Part shown: piece after piece, positions 37,762 to 48,517 of the stretch
Numbering within the stretch: position 1 is the stretch's first letter
Layout of the letters: each line of letters begins with the position of its first letter
Source: Pseudomonadota bacterium
GTDB taxonomy: Bacteria; Pseudomonadota; Alphaproteobacteria; SP197
NCBI GenBank assembly: GCA_039028155.1
Contig: JBCCIS010000036.1
Coordinates: 1 to 48,517 of the forward strand
Direction of reading: 5' to 3'
Length of the DNA stretch: 48,517 nucleotides
Notes under the pieces: model-generated
Told to the model about the DNA's origin: nothing
Database searches by the model: none
What the model saw: the letters and a program-made list of their open reading frames with translations, nothing else
Translations under genes and position numbers: made by a program

Positions 37762-39846
37762 ATGAGCCGAGACGAGCGTTACGATATCCTGTTCGAGCCG
37801 GTAAGAATCGGTCCGGTCACGGCCAAGAACCGCTTCTTTCAGGTACCGCACTGCACCGGTATGGGATCGAACTGGCCGCTGTCCCATGCCGCCTTTCGCC
37901 GTCAGCGGGCCGAAGGTGGTTGGGCCGTCATCTGCACCGAAGAGACGATGATCCATCCGACGTCGGACGCCTATCCCGGTGCCTCCATGCGGTTGTGGGA
38001 TGACGACGACATCAAGACCTTCGCCTTGGCCGCAGACGCTGTCCACGAGCACGGATCGTTGTTCGGGGTGGAGCTGGTCCATGGCGGTCTGTCGCGCGCT
38101 AACCGGACCAGCCGCATGACTCCCGTCGCCCCGTCCCATACGGCCAACAAGTACCCGACCCGCCCACAGGCGCGCGGGATGGACAAGGCCGACATCAAGG
38201 AGTTCCGGCGCTGGCACCGCGACGCCGCGATCCGCGCCAAGAAGGCGGGCACCGACGTCGTCTATATCTACGCTGCCCACAACATCGCGCTTCCCATGCA
38301 CTTTCTGTTGCCCCGCTATAACCGGCGGAATGATGAATACGGCGGTTCGCTGGAAAATCGCGTGCGCCTGTTGCGCGAAGTGCTGGAGGACACCCACGAA
38401 GCGATCGGCGACACCTGCGCCGTCGCACTGCGTTTCGCGGTCGACGAATGCATGGGTGCTGATGGGCTGGAGTGGGACAAGGAAGGTCGCGAGGTCGTCG
38501 AGATGCTGGCGGACGTGCCGGATATCTGGGACGTCAACATCAGTGGCTGGGAGTATGACTCCAACACCAGCCGGTTCTCCGAAGAGGGCTATCAAGAACC
38601 CTATATCGCCTTCGTCAAGCAGTTGACGTCGAAACCGGTTGTCGGTGTCGGCCGTTACACGTCTCCCGACGCCATGGTCGCGGCCGTGAAAAATGGCGTG
38701 ATGGATTTTATCGGCGCGGCACGCCCGGCCATTGCCGACCCGTTCCTGCCCAACAAGATCGAAGAGGGGCGGATCGACGACATTCGCGAGTGCATCGGCT
38801 GCAATATTTGCGTCACCGGCAACAACACCTTCGCGCCGATGCGCTGCACCCAGAATCCCGTTGTCGGCGAGGAGTGGCGTCGCGGCTGGCATGCCGAACA
38901 AATCGCCGCCAAGGGCTCCGACGAGCAGATCCTTATCGTCGGCGGCGGGCCCGCGGGCCTGGAAGCGGCACGAGCCCTGGGACAGCGTGGCTATTCCGTG
39001 ACCTTGGCCGAGCGCGAAAAGGAACTGGGCGGTCGTCTGAATTGGGAGACCAGCCTGCCGGGCCTGGCCACCTGGGCCAGGGTGCGCGACTGGCGGCTCG
39101 GTCAGATCGGCACCATGGCCAACGTCCAGGTCTATCTGGATAGTCTCCTGGACGATAAGTCGATACGCCAGTTCGGTGCCGCCCACGTGGTTCTGGCGAC
39201 CGGCGCGACATGGCGTCGCGACGGTGTCGGCCATAGTCATCATCACGCGCTGCCGGGTGCCGGGCGGTCGGGTGTGATTGGACCGGAAGATGTCGCCCGA
39301 GGTCCTGTCGGCGAGGGGCCGGTGGTCGTCTATGACGACGACCAAATGTATCTGGGCGGGGTGTTGGCCGAAAAGCTGGCCCGCGACGGCCATGACGTGA
39401 CCTTGGTGACGCCTGGCTCGGATGTTTCCGCGTTCACCATTTTGACGTTGGAGCAGCCTTTCGTGCAGCAACGCCTGCGCGAACTCGGCGTGACGATCCT
39501 GCAGCAGACCGACCTGGTCGCCGTTCATGACGGTGAGGCCGAACTGGCTTGCATCTTCACACGAGCGACGCATCGGGTGCCGGCCGCGACGGTGGTGTTG
39601 GTGACGTCGCGGGTGCCAAACGAGGCGATCTATCACAAGCTGGCGCGCCGGCCGGACCTGTTGGATGCCGCTGGCATCAAAACGGTGGGGATTATCGGGG
39701 ATTGTGTCGCGCCCGGCCTGGTTGCGGCGGCGGTCCACGATGGCCATCTCTATGCCCGGGAACTTGATATGCCGACGCCGCCTAATCCCGATGTGCCGTT
39801 CTTGCGCGAGCACATGGACCTGAGAGAGGAAAGGGAGAGCGTGTGA
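37762..39846 (+). CDS. Trimethylamine/dimethylamine dehydrogenase-family iron-sulfur flavoprotein
   Basis: A 694-residue protein colinear with TMADH: (beta/alpha)8 FMN barrel, [4Fe-4S] site and ADP-binding domains. Aligned by eye with Methylophilus TMADH: Cys31 (QVPHCTG) equals the cysteine carrying covalent FMN. Tyr170, His173 and Asp266 equal the catalytic triad. Cys344/347/350/362 equal the cluster ligands. In the substrate bowl Trp263 is kept, but TMADH Tyr60 is Glu61 and Trp355 is Asn354. The enzyme therefore probably oxidatively demethylates or deaminates a different amine. AAAGGGG precedes the ATG. Its stop overlaps the first GFA gene by one base (TGATG). Confidence 0.92.
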   Translation: MSRDERYDILFEPVRIGPVTAKNRFFQVPHCTGMGSNWPLSHAAFRRQRAEGGWAVICTEETMIHPTSDAYPGASMRLWDDDDIKTFALAADAVHEHGSLFGVELVHGGLSRANRTSRMTPVAPSHTANKYPTRPQARGMDKADIKEFRRWHRDAAIRAKKAGTDVVYIYAAHNIALPMHFLLPRYNRRNDEYGGSLENRVRLLREVLEDTHEAIGDTCAVALRFAVDECMGADGLEWDKEGREVVEMLADVPDIWDVNISGWEYDSNTSRFSEEGYQEPYIAFVKQLTSKPVVGVGRYTSPDAMVAAVKNGVMDFIGAARPAIADPFLPNKIEEGRIDDIRECIGCNICVTGNNTFAPMRCTQNPVVGEEWRRGWHAEQIAAKGSDEQILIVGGGPAGLEAARALGQRGYSVTLAEREKELGGRLNWETSLPGLATWARVRDWRLGQIGTMANVQVYLDSLLDDKSIRQFGAAHVVLATGATWRRDGVGHSHHHALPGAGRSGVIGPEDVARGPVGEGPVVVYDDDQMYLGGVLAEKLARDGHDVTLVTPGSDVSAFTILTLEQPFVQQRLRELGVTILQQTDLVAVHDGEAELACIFTRATHRVPAATVVLVTSRVPNEAIYHKLARRPDLLDAAGIKTVGIIGDCVAPGLVAAAVHDGHLYARELDMPTPPNPDVPFLREHMDLREERESV

Positions 39847-40322
39847 TGGTCGAGGTCATGTTGCCGCTAACCGGTGCCTGCCAATGTCGTGCGGTCACCT
39901 ATCGTGTTTCTGCGGCACCGTTGACGCTCTACTGTTGCCATTGCACGGAGTGCCAGCACCAGTCGTCGTCGGCCTTCGGTATGTCGTGCCTGGTCGACCG
40001 GGCCGACCTGACGGTGGACTGGTCGCAACTGGCTGTATGGACCCGACCGACCGATAGCGGCAATCAGCTGCAGTGTTACTTCTGTCCGACCTGCGGCGGG
40101 CGGCTGTTTCACATGTCGAAGGGCGATGACAGCATCGTGTCGGTCAAAGCGGGCTCATTCGACGACCGGTCCTGGCTTGTCCCGGTCGGTCATATCTGGA
40201 CCGCGAGTGCGCAGCCATGGGTTGATATCCCGGAAGACCTGCTGAACGTGTTGCACGACCCCGACGACATGACACCCTTCGTGGAGCGATGGCGCGCCAC
40301 GACCAGCGGTTGGTTCGCCTGA
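39846..40322 (+). CDS. GFA family (glutathione-dependent formaldehyde-activating enzyme-like) protein, copy 1
   Basis: A 158-residue zinc-fold protein: GACQC, CCHCTECQHQSSSAFG and CPTCGGRLFH give the cysteine pairs of the GFA/CENP-V domain. Some members spontaneously combine formaldehyde with glutathione; many have other or unknown roles. The ATG at 39846 overlaps the dehydrogenase stop; a GTG one codon before in the same frame is possible. AAGGGAG is upstream. Position in a one-base-overlap operon with a TMADH-family enzyme suggests handling of released formaldehyde, which is inference. Confidence 0.88.
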   Translation: MVEVMLPLTGACQCRAVTYRVSAAPLTLYCCHCTECQHQSSSAFGMSCLVDRADLTVDWSQLAVWTRPTDSGNQLQCYFCPTCGGRLFHMSKGDDSIVSVKAGSFDDRSWLVPVGHIWTASAQPWVDIPEDLLNVLHDPDDMTPFVERWRATTSGWFA

Positions 40323-40849
40323 TGCCGGGTCGCGGCGGACAGCGCGCGGCCTTGCCGCAGCATGGTGGCTGCCAGTGCGGTCATGTGCGTTATCGCCTGA
40401 GCGCGCCGCCGCTGGTCCTCTACGCCTGCCACTGCACCGAATGCCAGCACCAATCAGCGTCGGCCTTTGGGATGTCGATGGCCGTGGACCGCGGCGCGCT
40501 GTCCGTTGATTGGGCACGTTGCGGGACCTGGGAACGAGAAAGCGCGAGCGGCAGGACGGTCGCATGCCGGTTCTGTCGCCGGTGCGGGGCCCGCCTGTTC
40601 CATGAGCCCTCGCGCAATCCCGCCATCGTCAACATCAAACCGGGTTCGCTCGACGACCGATCCTGGCTGCAACCAGTGGGTCATCTGTGGGTGCGCAGCA
40701 AGCAACCATGGGTTAGGATCCCCGATCGTGCCTTGGCCTACGACGGACAGCCTGAAGATTTCGACGACTTGTTCGTCGCGTGGCGCGGCGTGGTGGACAA
40801 GCTGATCACAATGCCGTCGGTTTCTTCAACAGGATCAACCGTTTCGTGA
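40322..40849 (+). CDS. GFA family protein, copy 2
   Basis: A 175-residue paralog of the preceding gene with the same cysteine pattern (GGCQC, CHCTECQHQSASAFGMS, CRRCGARLFH) and shared segment SLDDRSWLQPVGHLW. It has a basic 15-residue N-terminal extension and a longer Ser/Thr-rich C-terminus. The ATG at 40322 overlaps the copy 1 stop by one base (TGATG), so dehydrogenase, GFA1 and GFA2 form one coupled operon. The two may act as a heterodimer or on different thiols. Divergence between the copies shows an old tandem duplication. Confidence 0.87.
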   Translation: MPGRGGQRAALPQHGGCQCGHVRYRLSAPPLVLYACHCTECQHQSASAFGMSMAVDRGALSVDWARCGTWERESASGRTVACRFCRRCGARLFHEPSRNPAIVNIKPGSLDDRSWLQPVGHLWVRSKQPWVRIPDRALAYDGQPEDFDDLFVAWRGVVDKLITMPSVSSTGSTVS

Positions 40850-41039: not shown

Positions 41040-42857
41040 ATGGAACGCAGACTGTCTGCCATTCTGGCTGCTGATGTTGTCGGCTACAGCCGCCTGATGA
41101 GCCGCGACGAGGCTGGTACGCTGGTCTCTGTTCAGGCCCAGCTCAACAACGTCGTTCTGCCGCAAATCGAGCGACACCAGGGCCGCCTGATCAACATCAT
41201 GGGCGACGGCATCCTCGCGCACTTCCCCGACGCGGTCAGTGCGGCGGAGTGCGGTGTGACCATCCAACGGGCGATCCAGGAACGCAATCTGAATACCAGC
41301 CCGCTCAATCCCATCGTGTTTCGCATGGGCATCAATCTGGGCGACATCATCGTGTCGGCGGAAGGTGTTCATGGCCACCATATCAACATCGCGACACGGC
41401 TGGAGCAGGAAGCCAAACCCGGCGCGATCAACATCTCCCAGGCTGTCTTTGACGCGATAAAGGACAAGATCGAATTCCAGATCCGGGAAGTCGGCGAGCG
41501 CAGTGTCAAGAACATCGACGTGCCGCTCATGATTTATGAGATCGATACCGGCGGTGTCGACGAAATGTCCAAGTTGGCTCAGAAGATCTACGACGAAGAG
41601 GCAGCCAGCGACGGCACTCCGGCGCAGGCTGCCGAGCACCAGCGTCCCAAGGTGATCGTCTTGCCGTTCACCAATCAAACGGGTGACCAAACCCAAGTCT
41701 ATCTGTGCGACGGCATCACCGAGGAAGTGACGTCGGAGTTGTCGCGCTTCTGGTCGTTCGACGTGTTGGCCGCTAACTCGGCCTCGCTTTACAAGGAATC
41801 GTCGCCGCGGCCCGACTACTTGCTGCGCGAATTCGGCACCCAGTACGTTGTTGCCGGCAGCGTCCGCAAACAGCCCAGCCACCTGCGCATCAACGCCCAG
41901 CTGATTGATGCGCGCACCGGCACGAACCTGTGGGTCGATCGGTTCGATTGCGACGTTGAGGATCCGTTTGCCGCGCAAGACAAGCTAGTGAAGCAGGTGG
42001 TCGCCCAGTTGGGCTTGCGGCTCGACACCGCCGAACGCGAGCTGCTGGCCAAGGAGCGCAAGCCCGGCCCGACCTTGAATGCCTATGAAGCGTATCTGAA
42101 GGGCGTGCAGTCGTTCACGTTCGAAACGCAAGAGGGCATCGAGGAGAGCCTGAGTTGGTTCAAGCGCGCCACCGAACTTGATCCCAACTTTGCTCGTGCC
42201 TGGGGCTATCTGGCCTATACCGAAGTTCGCGCGGTGCTATGTGGTTGGCGCGACATCGGCGCGTTTGTCGATGCCGAGGCCAACGCCCGGCGCGCCGTCG
42301 ATCTGGCGCCCAACGACTATCAGGTCCATTGGGATCTGGCGTTCGTGCACCTAAACCGCGGCGAGTTCGAGCGGGCCCACAGCGAGTACGAACGCGCCTG
42401 CCAGCTCAATCGCAATGACCCCGACCTGTTGTGCGAGATGGCCGAAATGAAGATCTATTTCGGGCTCGCCGAGGATGCCATCGGGTTGATCACGAATGCG
42501 ATGGAACTCAATCCCTATTTTCCAGACTGGTACCGCTGGAACCTCGGCTGGGCGTATTTCTGCGCCAAACGTTACGAGGAGGCGCTGCTGGAGTATGGCC
42601 GGATGTTCAAACCGCCCAACGACCTGCACCTGACGGTCGCGGCGGCTCTTGCCCATAGCGGTCGCGTTGCCGAGGCCGAGGCGACGGTCAATCTTTTCAA
42701 CAGCGCCCATGAGCGGCCATACACCATTGAAGATGCCCGCCGGCGGGTCCGTTTTCGCAATGAACGTGACGAGGACCATTATCTTAAGGGCCTGCGGCTG
42801 GCCGGCTTGCGGGACGAGCCGGCAATTCTGCTGATGGAAGCAGGCAAGGCATCATAA
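41040..42857 (+). CDS. Class III nucleotide cyclase-domain protein with TolB-like and TPR domains
   Basis: A 605-residue cytoplasmic protein. Residues 1-170 are a class III cyclase homology domain: metal Asp12 (AADVVGYS) and Asp56 (GDG), and transition-state Asn116/Arg120 (INIATR). The two nucleotide-selecting positions are changed: the usual Lys (K-x-x-GD) is Asn52 and the usual Asp (GDxxN) is His113. Residues about 204-330 resemble the TolB N-terminal domain (VIVLPFTNQTGDQ... GTQYVVAGSVRK), and 345-590 form TPRs ending in FRNERDEDHYLKGLRLAGL. This architecture is common in Rhizobiales and Rhodospirillales. Activity on ATP, GTP or nothing is open. No terminal membrane anchor was seen. Confidence 0.85.
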   Translation: MERRLSAILAADVVGYSRLMSRDEAGTLVSVQAQLNNVVLPQIERHQGRLINIMGDGILAHFPDAVSAAECGVTIQRAIQERNLNTSPLNPIVFRMGINLGDIIVSAEGVHGHHINIATRLEQEAKPGAINISQAVFDAIKDKIEFQIREVGERSVKNIDVPLMIYEIDTGGVDEMSKLAQKIYDEEAASDGTPAQAAEHQRPKVIVLPFTNQTGDQTQVYLCDGITEEVTSELSRFWSFDVLAANSASLYKESSPRPDYLLREFGTQYVVAGSVRKQPSHLRINAQLIDARTGTNLWVDRFDCDVEDPFAAQDKLVKQVVAQLGLRLDTAERELLAKERKPGPTLNAYEAYLKGVQSFTFETQEGIEESLSWFKRATELDPNFARAWGYLAYTEVRAVLCGWRDIGAFVDAEANARRAVDLAPNDYQVHWDLAFVHLNRGEFERAHSEYERACQLNRNDPDLLCEMAEMKIYFGLAEDAIGLITNAMELNPYFPDWYRWNLGWAYFCAKRYEEALLEYGRMFKPPNDLHLTVAAALAHSGRVAEAEATVNLFNSAHERPYTIEDARRRVRFRNERDEDHYLKGLRLAGLRDEPAILLMEAGKAS

Positions 42858-42883
42858 TCAGCTTTTTCTAGGAGGGGATCTCT

Positions 42884-43675
42884 ATGCGCGGCACCACGAA
42901 CGAAAAGGCGTTTCGCGCCTATCTGGATGGCGAACGTCTTTTCACCATTATCGACAAACAACAGATGGCGAAGAGCCGCAAGAAGTTCGAAGAGGCCATC
43001 AAACTCGACAATTGTTTTGCCCGCGCATACGGCTATCTCGCCTACACGATTACGCGCAGCGTCGCCAATGGCTGGTTGGGCGAGGCCCAGTTGAAGGTCG
43101 CTGAGGGTCATGCGCGCAAGGCCGTCAAGCTTGATCCTTATGATTACGCGACCTACTGGGATCTCGGTTACTGCCTGATCGGACAAGGCAAACTGAAGCA
43201 GGCCTTGACGCAGTATGACAAGGCCATGGATCTCTACGAGAACTTCACCGACCAGTTGGATCGCAAGCACGGGCTGCTGGCCGAGGTCGCCGAAGCCTAT
43301 GTGTTCGACGGCAGGCCCCAGGACGCGATCAAGATGCTTGAGCGCGCCAAGCGTTTCCCCGACTGGTATCGCTGGAACCTCGGCTGGGCCTATTACAGCG
43401 CCCGCGACTATGATGCGGCGATCAACGAGCTTGAATGCATGCGCTGCAAGCCCGGCGATGAAGGTTATGTGATGGAAGTGCAGCTTCTTCTCGCCGCTGC
43501 CTATGCGCAGAAGGGCAACGCGACGATGTCGAAGAACGCCATCGGCTTGTTCCGGTCGGCCAAGGGCCGGGGCCAAAGCGTCAAGTCGCTCGAAGGGCGC
43601 GTGAAGTTCCGCAACAAGAAGGATCGCGACCACTGGGTCGATGGTCTGCGCAAGGCCGGCCTGCCGGAAGGCTGA
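42884..43675 (+). CDS. TPR protein homologous to the cyclase C-terminal domain
   Basis: A 263-residue protein, all TPR-like, with a strong AGGAGGGG ribosome-binding site 26 nt after the cyclase gene. It shares with that gene's C-terminus a series of signatures in the same order: ARAYGYLAYT, a long Leu/Asp-Pro repeat, FPDWYRWNLGWAYY, and the closing VKFRNKKDRDHWVDGLRKAGL. It therefore looks like a free-standing copy of the cyclase's TPR module without the cyclase and TolB parts. It could bind the same partner or the cyclase itself. A 30-nt terminator hairpin follows. Confidence 0.85.
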   Translation: MRGTTNEKAFRAYLDGERLFTIIDKQQMAKSRKKFEEAIKLDNCFARAYGYLAYTITRSVANGWLGEAQLKVAEGHARKAVKLDPYDYATYWDLGYCLIGQGKLKQALTQYDKAMDLYENFTDQLDRKHGLLAEVAEAYVFDGRPQDAIKMLERAKRFPDWYRWNLGWAYYSARDYDAAINELECMRCKPGDEGYVMEVQLLLAAAYAQKGNATMSKNAIGLFRSAKGRGQSVKSLEGRVKFRNKKDRDHWVDGLRKAGLPEG

Positions 43676-43737: not shown

Positions 43738-43767
43738 AGCGGCCCCGGTCATCTGACCGGGGCCGCT
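43738..43767. terminator. Bidirectional intrinsic terminator between convergent genes
   Basis: A perfect 14-bp stem, AGCGGCCCCGGTCA (43738-43751) with TGACCGGGGCCGCT (43754-43767), has a 2-nt loop in the 113-nt gap between the TPR gene (+) and the solute-binding protein gene (-). On the minus strand it is followed by a T-rich run (complement of CAAAAACAAC, 43728-43737); on the plus strand only TTG follows. It probably terminates both transcripts, most strongly the minus-strand one. Confidence 0.85.
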
Positions 43768-45722: not shown

Positions 45723-47945
45723 CTAGTCTGGCGGCGATGGGAAGGGCGTCTCGTCGACAAATCGCGTGACGATGTTTTCCAGCAGAACGCTCACGTTGTT
45801 CTGGTAGTTGTCGTGGGCCAGCGAGCCGGCGAACGCAATGGAGCTGGTCGAAAACACCGCGCCGCCATTTGGTGTTTCGTAAAACACCATGTCACAGCGC
45901 ACATGCGGGCAGTTTTCGCCATTGACGGCGGAGTGCGTGTGGTGGAACTCCTCGTCGACCCAATGGACATCGACACCGAAGTCAGTCGCCTCCGCGACGA
46001 TGAGCGCATGGGGCGGTGTGCCAAGAGCGTAGTCGATGGCGTCGATCTCGCTTCCGGCCGCACCGCCCAGGACGGTTCCGAAATCGCCGATACTCTCGTT
46101 TTTGCCGATACCGTCGAACATCCACGCGGCGCGCGGGTCGTTGCTCTCGTCGCGACGCGCATAGGGTCTGGCGGCAATGAAACCTTGCGCCGAGAAACTG
46201 GTGCCGCAGATCACCTCAGGCGGGATGCCGTTACGCCGCCATAGGCCGGAGAGTTCGCCGGTGAAGCTCATATAGTACTCTCCGGGCTCGGCAATCCATG
46301 AGCGCATGCCATCCTCGGCCCGCCGCATCTCGATCACGCCGGGCAGCGTCGGGTGATAGGCGACACGCCAATAGAAGCCGTTGCCGCCCATATAGATGAA
46401 CCGCCCGCCACGCTGCTGGTAGTGCAGCAAGGCCTCCATCATCGGCTTTGAATAGTACTCCGGGTGCGTCGTCGTCATGACGCAAGGGTAGTTCTCCAAC
46501 AGGCTGACGCCTTCGGCGTCCAGGTCGTCATCGGTGAAAACGTCGAAGTCGATGCCTTTTTCTTCCAGCCAGTCGGTGATGTGGGTGTCGGCGTTGTATT
46601 GCCACAGATCGTCTCGCGGACCCATGCGCAGAAAAGGGCGCAGGCGCGAGGCATAGCAGACGCCGCTGCCGTCAGTGTGGTTGTCGTACATGCTGAGCCC
46701 GTGTTCGGGGTGCATGTGCAAATGCAGGTCGGTCTGATCCAGCGTCGTGAACCGGTTGCCCGAATGCTCGCCCAGCGTATCCCACTCGATCGGCATGTGA
46801 TGGTTGACATAGGCATAGTAGCTGGCGGTCGCGATCAACAGGCCCAGCTTCGCCGTCGTCGTGCCCTTCTTTGGCCGGACATAAAAGGGGACGTAGAACC
46901 ACTGATCGCCTTGGGTAAGGCGCGCGCAATAGGTGCCGCTCTTGAAGTCGTCGGGAATCGACCAACTGACGTCGGTCTGCCAGCCGCAGTCATAGACATC
47001 GTCGTCGTGAAAATGGATGGCGCCGTAGTGTTCGGGTTTGTGCGTCCAGACCATCTCGGTGCCGTCATGGTTTCGCCCTTTCATGGCGCGCGTCGGCAGA
47101 TTGACCGTCTGGCCGTCCAGACGATTGGGCGATGTGTCGACGATGCGCGTCCCCGGAATGTCCTGACTAAAATCCCAGGCGGCAACCGTGCTGGTCTGTA
47201 AGTCTGCAGGAGGCCTCACCGCCTTCATACGCTCCATCTTAGGCCGGGAGAGCGCGCGGTTGGCGACGCGCGGGCTGTCGATCTTGCCGTTGAAGAAGTT
47301 GGTGGCGATCTGGTCGCCCTCGCGCTGATTGTTGCACGCGGCAATGGTGAAGCGTCCGCCTTGGCCGGGCTTCAACGCTACGTCCAACTCGGCACGCGCC
47401 TTGCCACGTTCACCGGCGTAGCGCACCAGCGGTTCCTGAATGACTGTCATGGCGCCCGTCGCGGCATCGAAGCTCGCGGCGACGAAGTACCAGTGGCGCG
47501 GATCCATCGCGGCGCCGGAAACAAGCGTCTCGACAATCGACCCATCGCCGATGACGAGTGCCGCCTGTTTGTCATGCACCGCCAGCGCATACCCCGCGTT
47601 TTTCGCCCGGTCGAGGGCGCCCATAATCGTCTGACCTTCCTTGTCAGGCGTCGTTGGCCAGACGAAGGCCTGCAGGGTGAAGCTCTCCAGCGCGAAACGC
47701 TCCGGATGCGGCACGACAACAAACGAACCAACCTGGGTCCACTGGTAACGCGCGGGATAGTCGCCATTGACGTCGGCGTCGATGACCGTCTCCTTCAGGC
47801 CCTGACCCTGCGGCGTATCGTCGCCGCAGCGAATGCGAACGATGTCGAGACGATAGCTTCCTTCGACTTCGGAACTGACCTTGAAGTCGATTGTCTGACC
47901 GGGTTGCCGGCTGATTTCGTTGGCGTAACCCAACAGCTTGCGCAT
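45723..47945 (-). CDS. N,N-dimethylformamidase large-subunit-like amidohydrolase (copy B)
   Basis: A 740-residue protein with the same plan as the gene at 22806: N-terminal beta domain starting LLGYANEISRQPGQTIDF, LamG-like domain (about 85-235), GAIHFHDDDVYD and the catalytic DMFase domain. Candidate iron ligands by alignment are Tyr379 (SYYAYVN), Tyr420 (LSMYDNHTDGSG) and Glu496 (THPEYYS). The 41-residue gap between the two Tyr agrees with characterised DMFase as I recall it. I chose the ATG at 47945 because GAGGA is well spaced from it; the ATG at 47954 overlaps the upstream stop. No signal peptide. It is directly coupled to copy C. Confidence 0.87.
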   Translation of the reverse strand: MRKLLGYANEISRQPGQTIDFKVSSEVEGSYRLDIVRIRCGDDTPQGQGLKETVIDADVNGDYPARYQWTQVGSFVVVPHPERFALESFTLQAFVWPTTPDKEGQTIMGALDRAKNAGYALAVHDKQAALVIGDGSIVETLVSGAAMDPRHWYFVAASFDAATGAMTVIQEPLVRYAGERGKARAELDVALKPGQGGRFTIAACNNQREGDQIATNFFNGKIDSPRVANRALSRPKMERMKAVRPPADLQTSTVAAWDFSQDIPGTRIVDTSPNRLDGQTVNLPTRAMKGRNHDGTEMVWTHKPEHYGAIHFHDDDVYDCGWQTDVSWSIPDDFKSGTYCARLTQGDQWFYVPFYVRPKKGTTTAKLGLLIATASYYAYVNHHMPIEWDTLGEHSGNRFTTLDQTDLHLHMHPEHGLSMYDNHTDGSGVCYASRLRPFLRMGPRDDLWQYNADTHITDWLEEKGIDFDVFTDDDLDAEGVSLLENYPCVMTTTHPEYYSKPMMEALLHYQQRGGRFIYMGGNGFYWRVAYHPTLPGVIEMRRAEDGMRSWIAEPGEYYMSFTGELSGLWRRNGIPPEVICGTSFSAQGFIAARPYARRDESNDPRAAWMFDGIGKNESIGDFGTVLGGAAGSEIDAIDYALGTPPHALIVAEATDFGVDVHWVDEEFHHTHSAVNGENCPHVRCDMVFYETPNGGAVFSTSSIAFAGSLAHDNYQNNVSVLLENIVTRFVDETPFPSPPD

Positions 47946-47950
47946 GGTCG

Positions 47951-48517
47951 TCATTCCTCGTTGAGCGGTGTCGGGTCGGCGAACCGCCGCAAGACGTTAT
48001 CGGTGATCGTGGAAATGTCGTTGTCGTAGTTGTTATGGCCCAGGCTTGCGGACCAACTGATCGAGCCTGTCGAGAAGACCGCCGACCCGTCGGGCCGCGT
48101 GAAGTAGGCCATGTCGGCGCGCACCCTGGGGTTAGCGTCACCGGTGATGGCGGCGTGATTGAAGACGACCTCGTCTGGGCTCAGCATGTAGTAGCCGGAG
48201 TGGCCGGTCGAACTGGCCAGAATGATCGTGTCGGCGGGCGAACCGAGAGCGGTGTCGACGCCGTCCAGTTCGATGCCCGCGGCGCCGCCCAATGCGCCGA
48301 AGTCACCGATGATGTCGCCCTCGACACCGTCCATAATCCATCGGGCGCGCGGGTCGTCAGCGCCGGGTTGGCGCACATACCAGCCGCAGGTATCGAAACC
48401 GGTGGCAAAGGTGCCGATGCCGACCAGGCTTTGCGGTGGCCGGCCGATGCGTTTCCACAAGCCGCCGTATTCGCCGCTGAAGCTCAAATAGGATTCACCG
48501 GGCCGCGACGCCCAGAA
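47951..48517 (-). CDS. N,N-dimethylformamidase large-subunit-like amidohydrolase (copy C), C-terminal part (partial)
   Basis: Only the last 188 codons are in the window; the gene continues past its right edge. The segment FSGEYGGLWKRIGRPPQSLVG, then IIGDFGALGGAAGIELDG and SAVFSTGSISWSASLGHNNYDND, is the C-terminal DMFase domain and is homologous to both other copies. In characterised DMFases this region forms the end of the catalytic lobe. Its stop at 47951 lies 5 nt before the chosen start of copy B, so copies C and B are in one operon. Whether the full gene has the LamG and metal-binding parts cannot be seen. Confidence 0.85.
   Translation of the reverse strand, partial: FWASRPGESYLSFSGEYGGLWKRIGRPPQSLVGIGTFATGFDTCGWYVRQPGADDPRARWIMDGVEGDIIGDFGALGGAAGIELDGVDTALGSPADTIILASSTGHSGYYMLSPDEVVFNHAAITGDANPRVRADMAYFTRPDGSAVFSTGSISWSASLGHNNYDNDISTITDNVLRRFADPTPLNEE

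Follow-up and report, generated by a model that had tools for sequence, protein, structure and literature searches.

A paired alphaproteobacterial class III cyclase with both base-selecting residues changed and its catalytic residues kept

The base choice of class III cyclases is usually read from two residues, and annotation names such proteins adenylate or guanylate cyclases. Adenylyl cyclases use a Lys plus an Asp or Thr as selectors (PMC7384201), and the first selector of guanylyl cyclases is a Glu (PMC4215837). Residue roles are described for the Mycobacterium avium cyclase Ma1120 (PMC4215837, PMC7384201): K101E alone lowers ATP turnover about 20-fold, while Lys-to-Glu changes abolished activity in two other cyclases; D157G alone retains ATP use (kcat/Km of 1.98, against 1.25 for the wild type) and reduces GTP use (0.006 against 0.11); and the Glu/Gly/Tyr mutant uses ATP and GTP equally (all PMC4215837). 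No Lys-to-Asn cyclase mutant was found in the available parts of the literature searched.

The window, by which we mean the whole 48,517-nucleotide stretch of DNA that was analysed, contains a class III cyclase gene at the position given in the first-pass annotation:

41040..42857, + strand: cyclase/TolB_N-like/TPR protein, 605 aa (ATG at 41040; TAA ends at 42857)
41058..41513, + strand: class III cyclase domain, residues 7-158 (PF00211, 39.5 bits against a cut-off of 21.9)
41634..41927, + strand: TolB_N-like domain, residues 199-296 (PF04052, 22.0 bits, slightly below the cut-off of 22.4)
42132..42599, + strand: TPR repeats, approximately residues 365-520 (PF07719 and others)

A PF00211 score above the curated cut-off makes the protein a class III cyclase by domain, and its domain order and full-length similarity place it in a cyclase/TolB_N-like/TPR family of Alphaproteobacteria, with the TolB_N assignment falling just short of threshold. 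The host genome (5.31 Mb, 118 contigs) holds 23 PF00211 places including this one; searching it with the full-length protein gives seven places at E ≤ 1e-60, the query itself counted, and several paralogues of the same architecture have Lys/Asp selectors. Eight cNMP-binding domains are also encoded, so receptors are available. A promoter scan found nothing, and the predicted structure of the cyclase protein (mean pLDDT 41.8, from a two-sequence alignment) was left out of all reasoning.

Alignments located the residues on which activity and base choice would depend:

41073..41075, + strand: Asp12, first metal Asp (alignments)
41193..41195, + strand: Asn52 at the adenine-recognising Lys site (opposite Ma1120 K101 and the 3mr7 Lys)
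41205..41207, + strand: Asp56, second metal Asp (alignments)
41364..41366, + strand: Gly109 at the partner (Asp/Thr) site (opposite Ma1120 D157; Gly in the mutant 5d0g)
41376..41381, + strand: His113-His114, in place of the conserved Asp-Gly of GDxVN (alignments, residue frequencies)
41385..41387, + strand: Asn116, ribose-orienting, transition-state Asn (alignments)
41394..41396, + strand: Thr119, third base-site position, equivalent to Ma1120 A167 (Ma1120 alignment; frequencies among architecture members)
41397..41399, + strand: Arg120, transition-state Arg (alignments)
41508..41510, + strand: Lys157, expected triphosphate-positioning Lys (kept in 51 of 56 architecture members)

Positioning the triphosphate is the role of the Lys at the Lys157 site in this class, and it is also described in PMC2576301. 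By alignment the five catalytic residues Asp12, Asp56, Asn116, Arg120 and Lys157 are intact; the first-pass annotation had already read the two metal Asp and the Asn/Arg pair in this way, and had correctly put Asn52 at the Lys site. The best PDB match, 3mr7, aligns across residues 2-167 with no gap (E 3.5e-33), and the Ma1120 alignment spans residues 28-146, with a single-residue gap separating the selectors and an ungapped stretch from the second selector through Arg120. Gly109 faces Asp157 of Ma1120, and against 5d0g, which has Gly157, Gly faces Gly; alignments to 3mr7 and to other family members also give Gly109 as the second selector. The annotation had taken His113 for the partner residue. 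This did not hold up: His113 lies four residues after Gly109, at the Asp of GDxVN, and judged from these alignments it is a genuine oddity, yet not the adenine partner. The expectation that alignment to characterised class III cyclases would leave no canonical Lys/Asp at the selectors was borne out, with the second residue being Gly109 instead.

Both selector positions are thus changed in the aligned sequence, to Asn/Gly, and by this reading the protein is neither a canonical adenylyl cyclase, which would have Lys with Asp or Thr, nor a canonical guanylyl cyclase, which would have Glu where Asn52 stands. The broader point of the annotation was right: neither selector is canonical, the catalytic residues are intact, and base preference is in doubt. 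The cyclase domain contains four His residues (His61, His111, His113 and His114), and three of them stand where most of the 56 architecture members have another residue: Glu at the His61 position in 45, Asp at the His113 position in 47 and Gly at the His114 position in 48.

We surveyed relatives in two sets, both collected by similarity to the target and hence no random sample. The architecture set comprised 59 distinct domains with a TolB_N-like part, 56 of them readable (three rows were dropped); the close-domain set came from at least 134 matches to the target domain at E 1e-36, spread over 51 of the 376 genomes of the class, with at most nine candidates scored per genome, and 132 of the 134 were usable (two dropped). 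Lys/Asp was found in 33 of the 56 architecture members and 105 of the 132 close domains, so the claim that relatives keep this pair stands for the majority and fails as a uniform rule. In the architecture set, 5 members have lost only the Lys, 2 only the Asp and 16 both, with Thr at the second selector scored as a lost Asp; Thr is an accepted second selector of adenylyl cyclases (PMC7384201). The D/D/N/R set is retained by 14 of the 16 that lost both selectors, 2 having lost a catalytic residue, and by neither of the 2 that lost only the Asp. All 26 close domains without the Lys, of 132 readable, keep D/D/N/R, indicating that changed selectors are not tied to loss of catalytic residues in close relatives.

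The particular residues of the target are uncommon among the close domains, although Lys/Asp is not universal there. Asn occupies the Lys site in 9 of 132, the target among them; Gly at the partner site occurs in the target only; and His at position 113, which is Asp in 119 of 132, is shared with a single other domain (L224), which has Lys/Asp. At position 119, 41 of 56 architecture members have Ala, and the target and its congener are the only ones with Thr; among close domains Thr occurs there in 5 of 132, target included. A phylum-wide search at E 1e-105 matched 1 of 398 genomes, the host's own, and no others. About a fifth of the close alphaproteobacterial relatives (27/132) depart from Lys/Asp yet keep the catalytic residues, which makes product predictions unreliable for a large family.

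Several other cyclase domains came to light in these surveys. One lineage of the target's cyclase type (L013, L014, L016 and L022, in G013, G002 and G006) has Arg and Glu at the first and second selector sites and Tyr two residues before the first metal Asp, and L022 is without the second metal Asp. Two domains of other architecture in the host genome, L035 (G000:C7:64517-65026) and L007 (G000:C55:21650-22186), have His aligned at the Lys site, and the partner site of L035 aligns to Gly; the alignment here is gapped and less sure. In another genome, four cyclase domains like that of the target share a strand over some 6 kb (G221:C24:394071-400081).

The only close orthologue found (L010, with an identical ORF in L049) belongs to the same genus and is 97% identical. 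Between the two there are 155 synonymous and 24 non-synonymous differences, and Nei-Gojobori dN/dS is 0.045 in the cyclase domain and 0.035 over the whole gene, the latter value ruling out a decaying pseudogene. The codons for Asn52, Gly109, His113 and His114 each differ synonymously in the congener with the residue unchanged; the changed site is thus held, at least between these two species, which alone carry Asn/Gly and provide the one pair on which selection was measured. Faster decay of the cyclase domain alone was not clearly seen: compared with 30 outside Lys/Asp rows, the target has a mean identity of 43.3% in the cyclase and 38.8% in the TolB_N-like part. The same genus also contains a protein of the same architecture in which Asp56 has become Ala and Asn116 has become Arg or Lys (L034, G000:C1:212108-213823, and its counterpart L033 in the congener), likely a true pseudo-cyclase maintained in both species.

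Immediately downstream of the cyclase is a second gene:

42870..42876, + strand: AGGAGGG, likely ribosome-binding site of the partner gene (read from sequence)
42884..43675, + strand: TPR-only partner, paralogue of the cyclase TPR tail, 263 aa, 26 bases downstream of the cyclase

The partner protein shares 40% identity with the TPR tail of the cyclase beside it. Seven genomes, drawn from three families, have a similar TPR-only gene directly after the cyclase (the host's own, G003, G022, G178, G351, G403 and G406), and its first possible start lies 24-112 bases beyond the cyclase; the most distant partner, that of G403, is 25-31% identical to the others. Among 71 cyclase entries scanned, 17 have a TPR match downstream: 14 belong to the seven genomes, some in at least two loci, and the remaining three (L025, L028, L066) resemble pieces of disrupted cyclase frames. 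No such match was found for the remaining 54, five of them duplicates, one of which (L024) has too little sequence for a judgement. Searching the class with the partner protein as query (E 1e-35) matched 4 of 376 genomes and returned such pairs only.

The seven paired cyclases, the target among them, form a single clade (100/100) in a tree built from 51 cyclases. Partners cluster apart from cyclase tails with modest support (0.75), and the duplication that gave rise to them therefore looks old on sequence grounds. The first tree left out domains that scored low or covered less than roughly 140 profile positions, together with known duplicates and the short rows L016, L025, L028 and L031; the second additionally left out the long-branched L041, L044 and L047. 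Genes beside the pair differ between the window and the G178 and G351 frames (the latter judged by eye), an indication that cyclase and partner form a unit. Within the clade, G022, G403 and G406 have Lys/Asp selectors, G178 and G351 have Ser/Asn, and the window and G003 have Asn/Gly; two separate selector changes would be the simplest reading of a tree whose inner branching is partly weak. What is new here is this TPR-only paralogue after the cyclase in seven genomes, three families and one cyclase clade. No description of the architecture or the gene pair was found in the literature searched, which included the available part of PMC5498481 and had most subscription journals outside its scope.

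Elsewhere in the window, tandem overlapping GFA-family genes (39843-40322 and 40289-40849, + strand) lie downstream of an OYE/FadH-like oxidoreductase, and a protein with a dimethylformamidase beta-subunit-like C-terminal domain (45723-47954, - strand) adjoins a family 5 solute-binding protein gene. Between the end of the solute-binding protein gene and the partner gene is a strong terminator-like hairpin of 13 pairs followed by a T-rich run (43738-43767, - strand).

We favour, at a probability just under one half (about 0.48), a working class III cyclase with loosened base selection that probably still uses ATP and would be gated or localised with its partner; a working enzyme is preferred because the whole catalytic set is kept and under selection. 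Such an enzyme would form a head-to-tail homodimer in which one chain contributes Asp12 and Asp56 to hold the metals and its mate contributes Asn116, Arg120 and Lys157 to orient the ribose and triphosphate. With Asn52/Gly109/Thr119 replacing Lys/Asp/Ala, the base would be held by weaker or water-mediated contacts, ATP probably remaining the main substrate and GTP or another NTP serving as a side or second substrate, while gating of dimerisation, or localisation of the enzyme, may fall to the TolB_N-like/TPR region together with the TPR-only partner encoded beside it. By analogy, the Gly is compatible with ATP use: Ma1120 D157G uses ATP, indicating that changed selectors alone need not change the product, and Gly is natural at the partner site of Cya2. 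Against a working cyclase, His113, His114 and His61 at otherwise conserved positions might upset the site, Lys-to-Glu changes cut or abolish activity in the other cyclases noted above, and 2 of the 16 doubly changed architecture members have lost a catalytic residue.

Doubtful, in our judgement, is a preference for GTP or another NTP that would yield a messenger other than cAMP, in line with the annotation's suggestion of a different nucleotide. The two selectors and Thr119, the third base-site position, are altered together, the Lys/Asp paralogues of the same genome could leave room for another product, and both the guanylyl cyclase Cya2, with Gly at the partner site, and the dual-substrate Ma1120 Glu/Gly/Tyr mutant (PMC4215837) offer precedents; yet the first site is without the Glu of guanylyl cyclases, D157G alone lowered GTP use in Ma1120 (PMC4215837), and neither the cytidylate nor the clade D uridylate residue set is matched. 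A fuller account, which we regard as speculative and rather unlikely as a whole, is that a conserved two-gene module (cyclase/TolB_N-like/TPR plus TPR-only paralogue), undescribed in the literature searched, changed its selectors twice, from Lys/Asp to Ser/Asn and to Asn/Gly, with the catalytic residues kept, and that its Asn/Gly/Thr member makes a different or mixed cyclic nucleotide regulated or read by the TPR pair. The paired clade, with Lys/Asp, Ser/Asn and Asn/Gly in one module, is a natural series for what sets the product.

The annotation had also proposed a non-catalytic sensor. A cyclase-like domain that binds nucleotide or only dimerises, acting as sensor or scaffold with the TPR partner, would fit the loss of both selectors, the three His at otherwise conserved positions and the likely pseudo-cyclase of the same architecture in the genus. 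We consider it unlikely: unlike that pseudo-cyclase, the target keeps all five catalytic residues under strong purifying selection in its cyclase domain, its close relatives without the Lys uniformly keep D/D/N/R, and a pure scaffold is not expected to retain the metal Asp and transition-state Arg. Improbable above all is a heterodimer half that would supply metal Asp and regulatory parts to a canonical Lys/Asp paralogue recognising the base, since, for all the same-architecture Lys/Asp candidates among the 23 PF00211 places, Asn116 and Arg120 are retained, residues that a C1-like half can lose, and no Lys/Asp paralogue is linked to the cyclase gene.

The working, loosened cyclase that we prefer can be set beside several known systems. 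Rv1900c (LipJ) is an active cyclase with Asn at the Lys site and so a precedent for Asn52; its Lys-site residue did not surface in the literature searches. The target matches its family model NF058673 weakly (44 bits against a cut-off of 800), and Rv1900c differs in being a lipase-cyclase fusion in which the catalytic Asn is replaced by His (PMC4886424). Rhizobial 'adenylate/guanylate cyclase domain-containing' proteins of similar length gave 390 matching plasmid records, all below 60% identity and 333 of them with a query coverage of 80% or more; no function for them was found in the literature searched.

A Pycsar assignment was rejected. The best PycC score for the target is weak (28 bits), PADLOC found no match among the three neighbours scanned, and the flanking genes (GFA, TPR and solute-binding protein) include no adjacent TM or TIR effector. 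The residues at aligned offsets (A10, N52, M54 and L59) match neither the CTP set (F/R/Q) nor the clade D UTP set (F/K/F) of PycC (PMC11224242), the two sets that the comparison covers. An aromatic residue two positions ahead of the first metal Asp was dropped as a pyrimidine mark: other class III domains in the genome carry Phe there, so its absence says little.

Closer to the target are three class III cyclases. The guanylyl cyclase Cya2 (2w01), which matched at E 3.2e-10, has Glu at the first selector site. It shares Gly at the second selector with the target and differs in having Tyr at the third site (PMC4215837), where the target has Thr119. The solved domain 3mr7, labelled 'adenylate/guanylate cyclase/hydrolase', belongs to the same domain family and has Lys and Asp at the selectors and Asp in GDxVN, in contrast to the Asn/Gly and His113 of the target. 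Ma1120 (4wp8, 5d15, 5d0g) has Lys/Asp/Ala in the wild type against Asn/Gly/Thr in the target; its K101E/D157G/A167Y mutant carries Gly at the Gly109 position, as the target does naturally, and the target adds the TolB_N-like and TPR parts.
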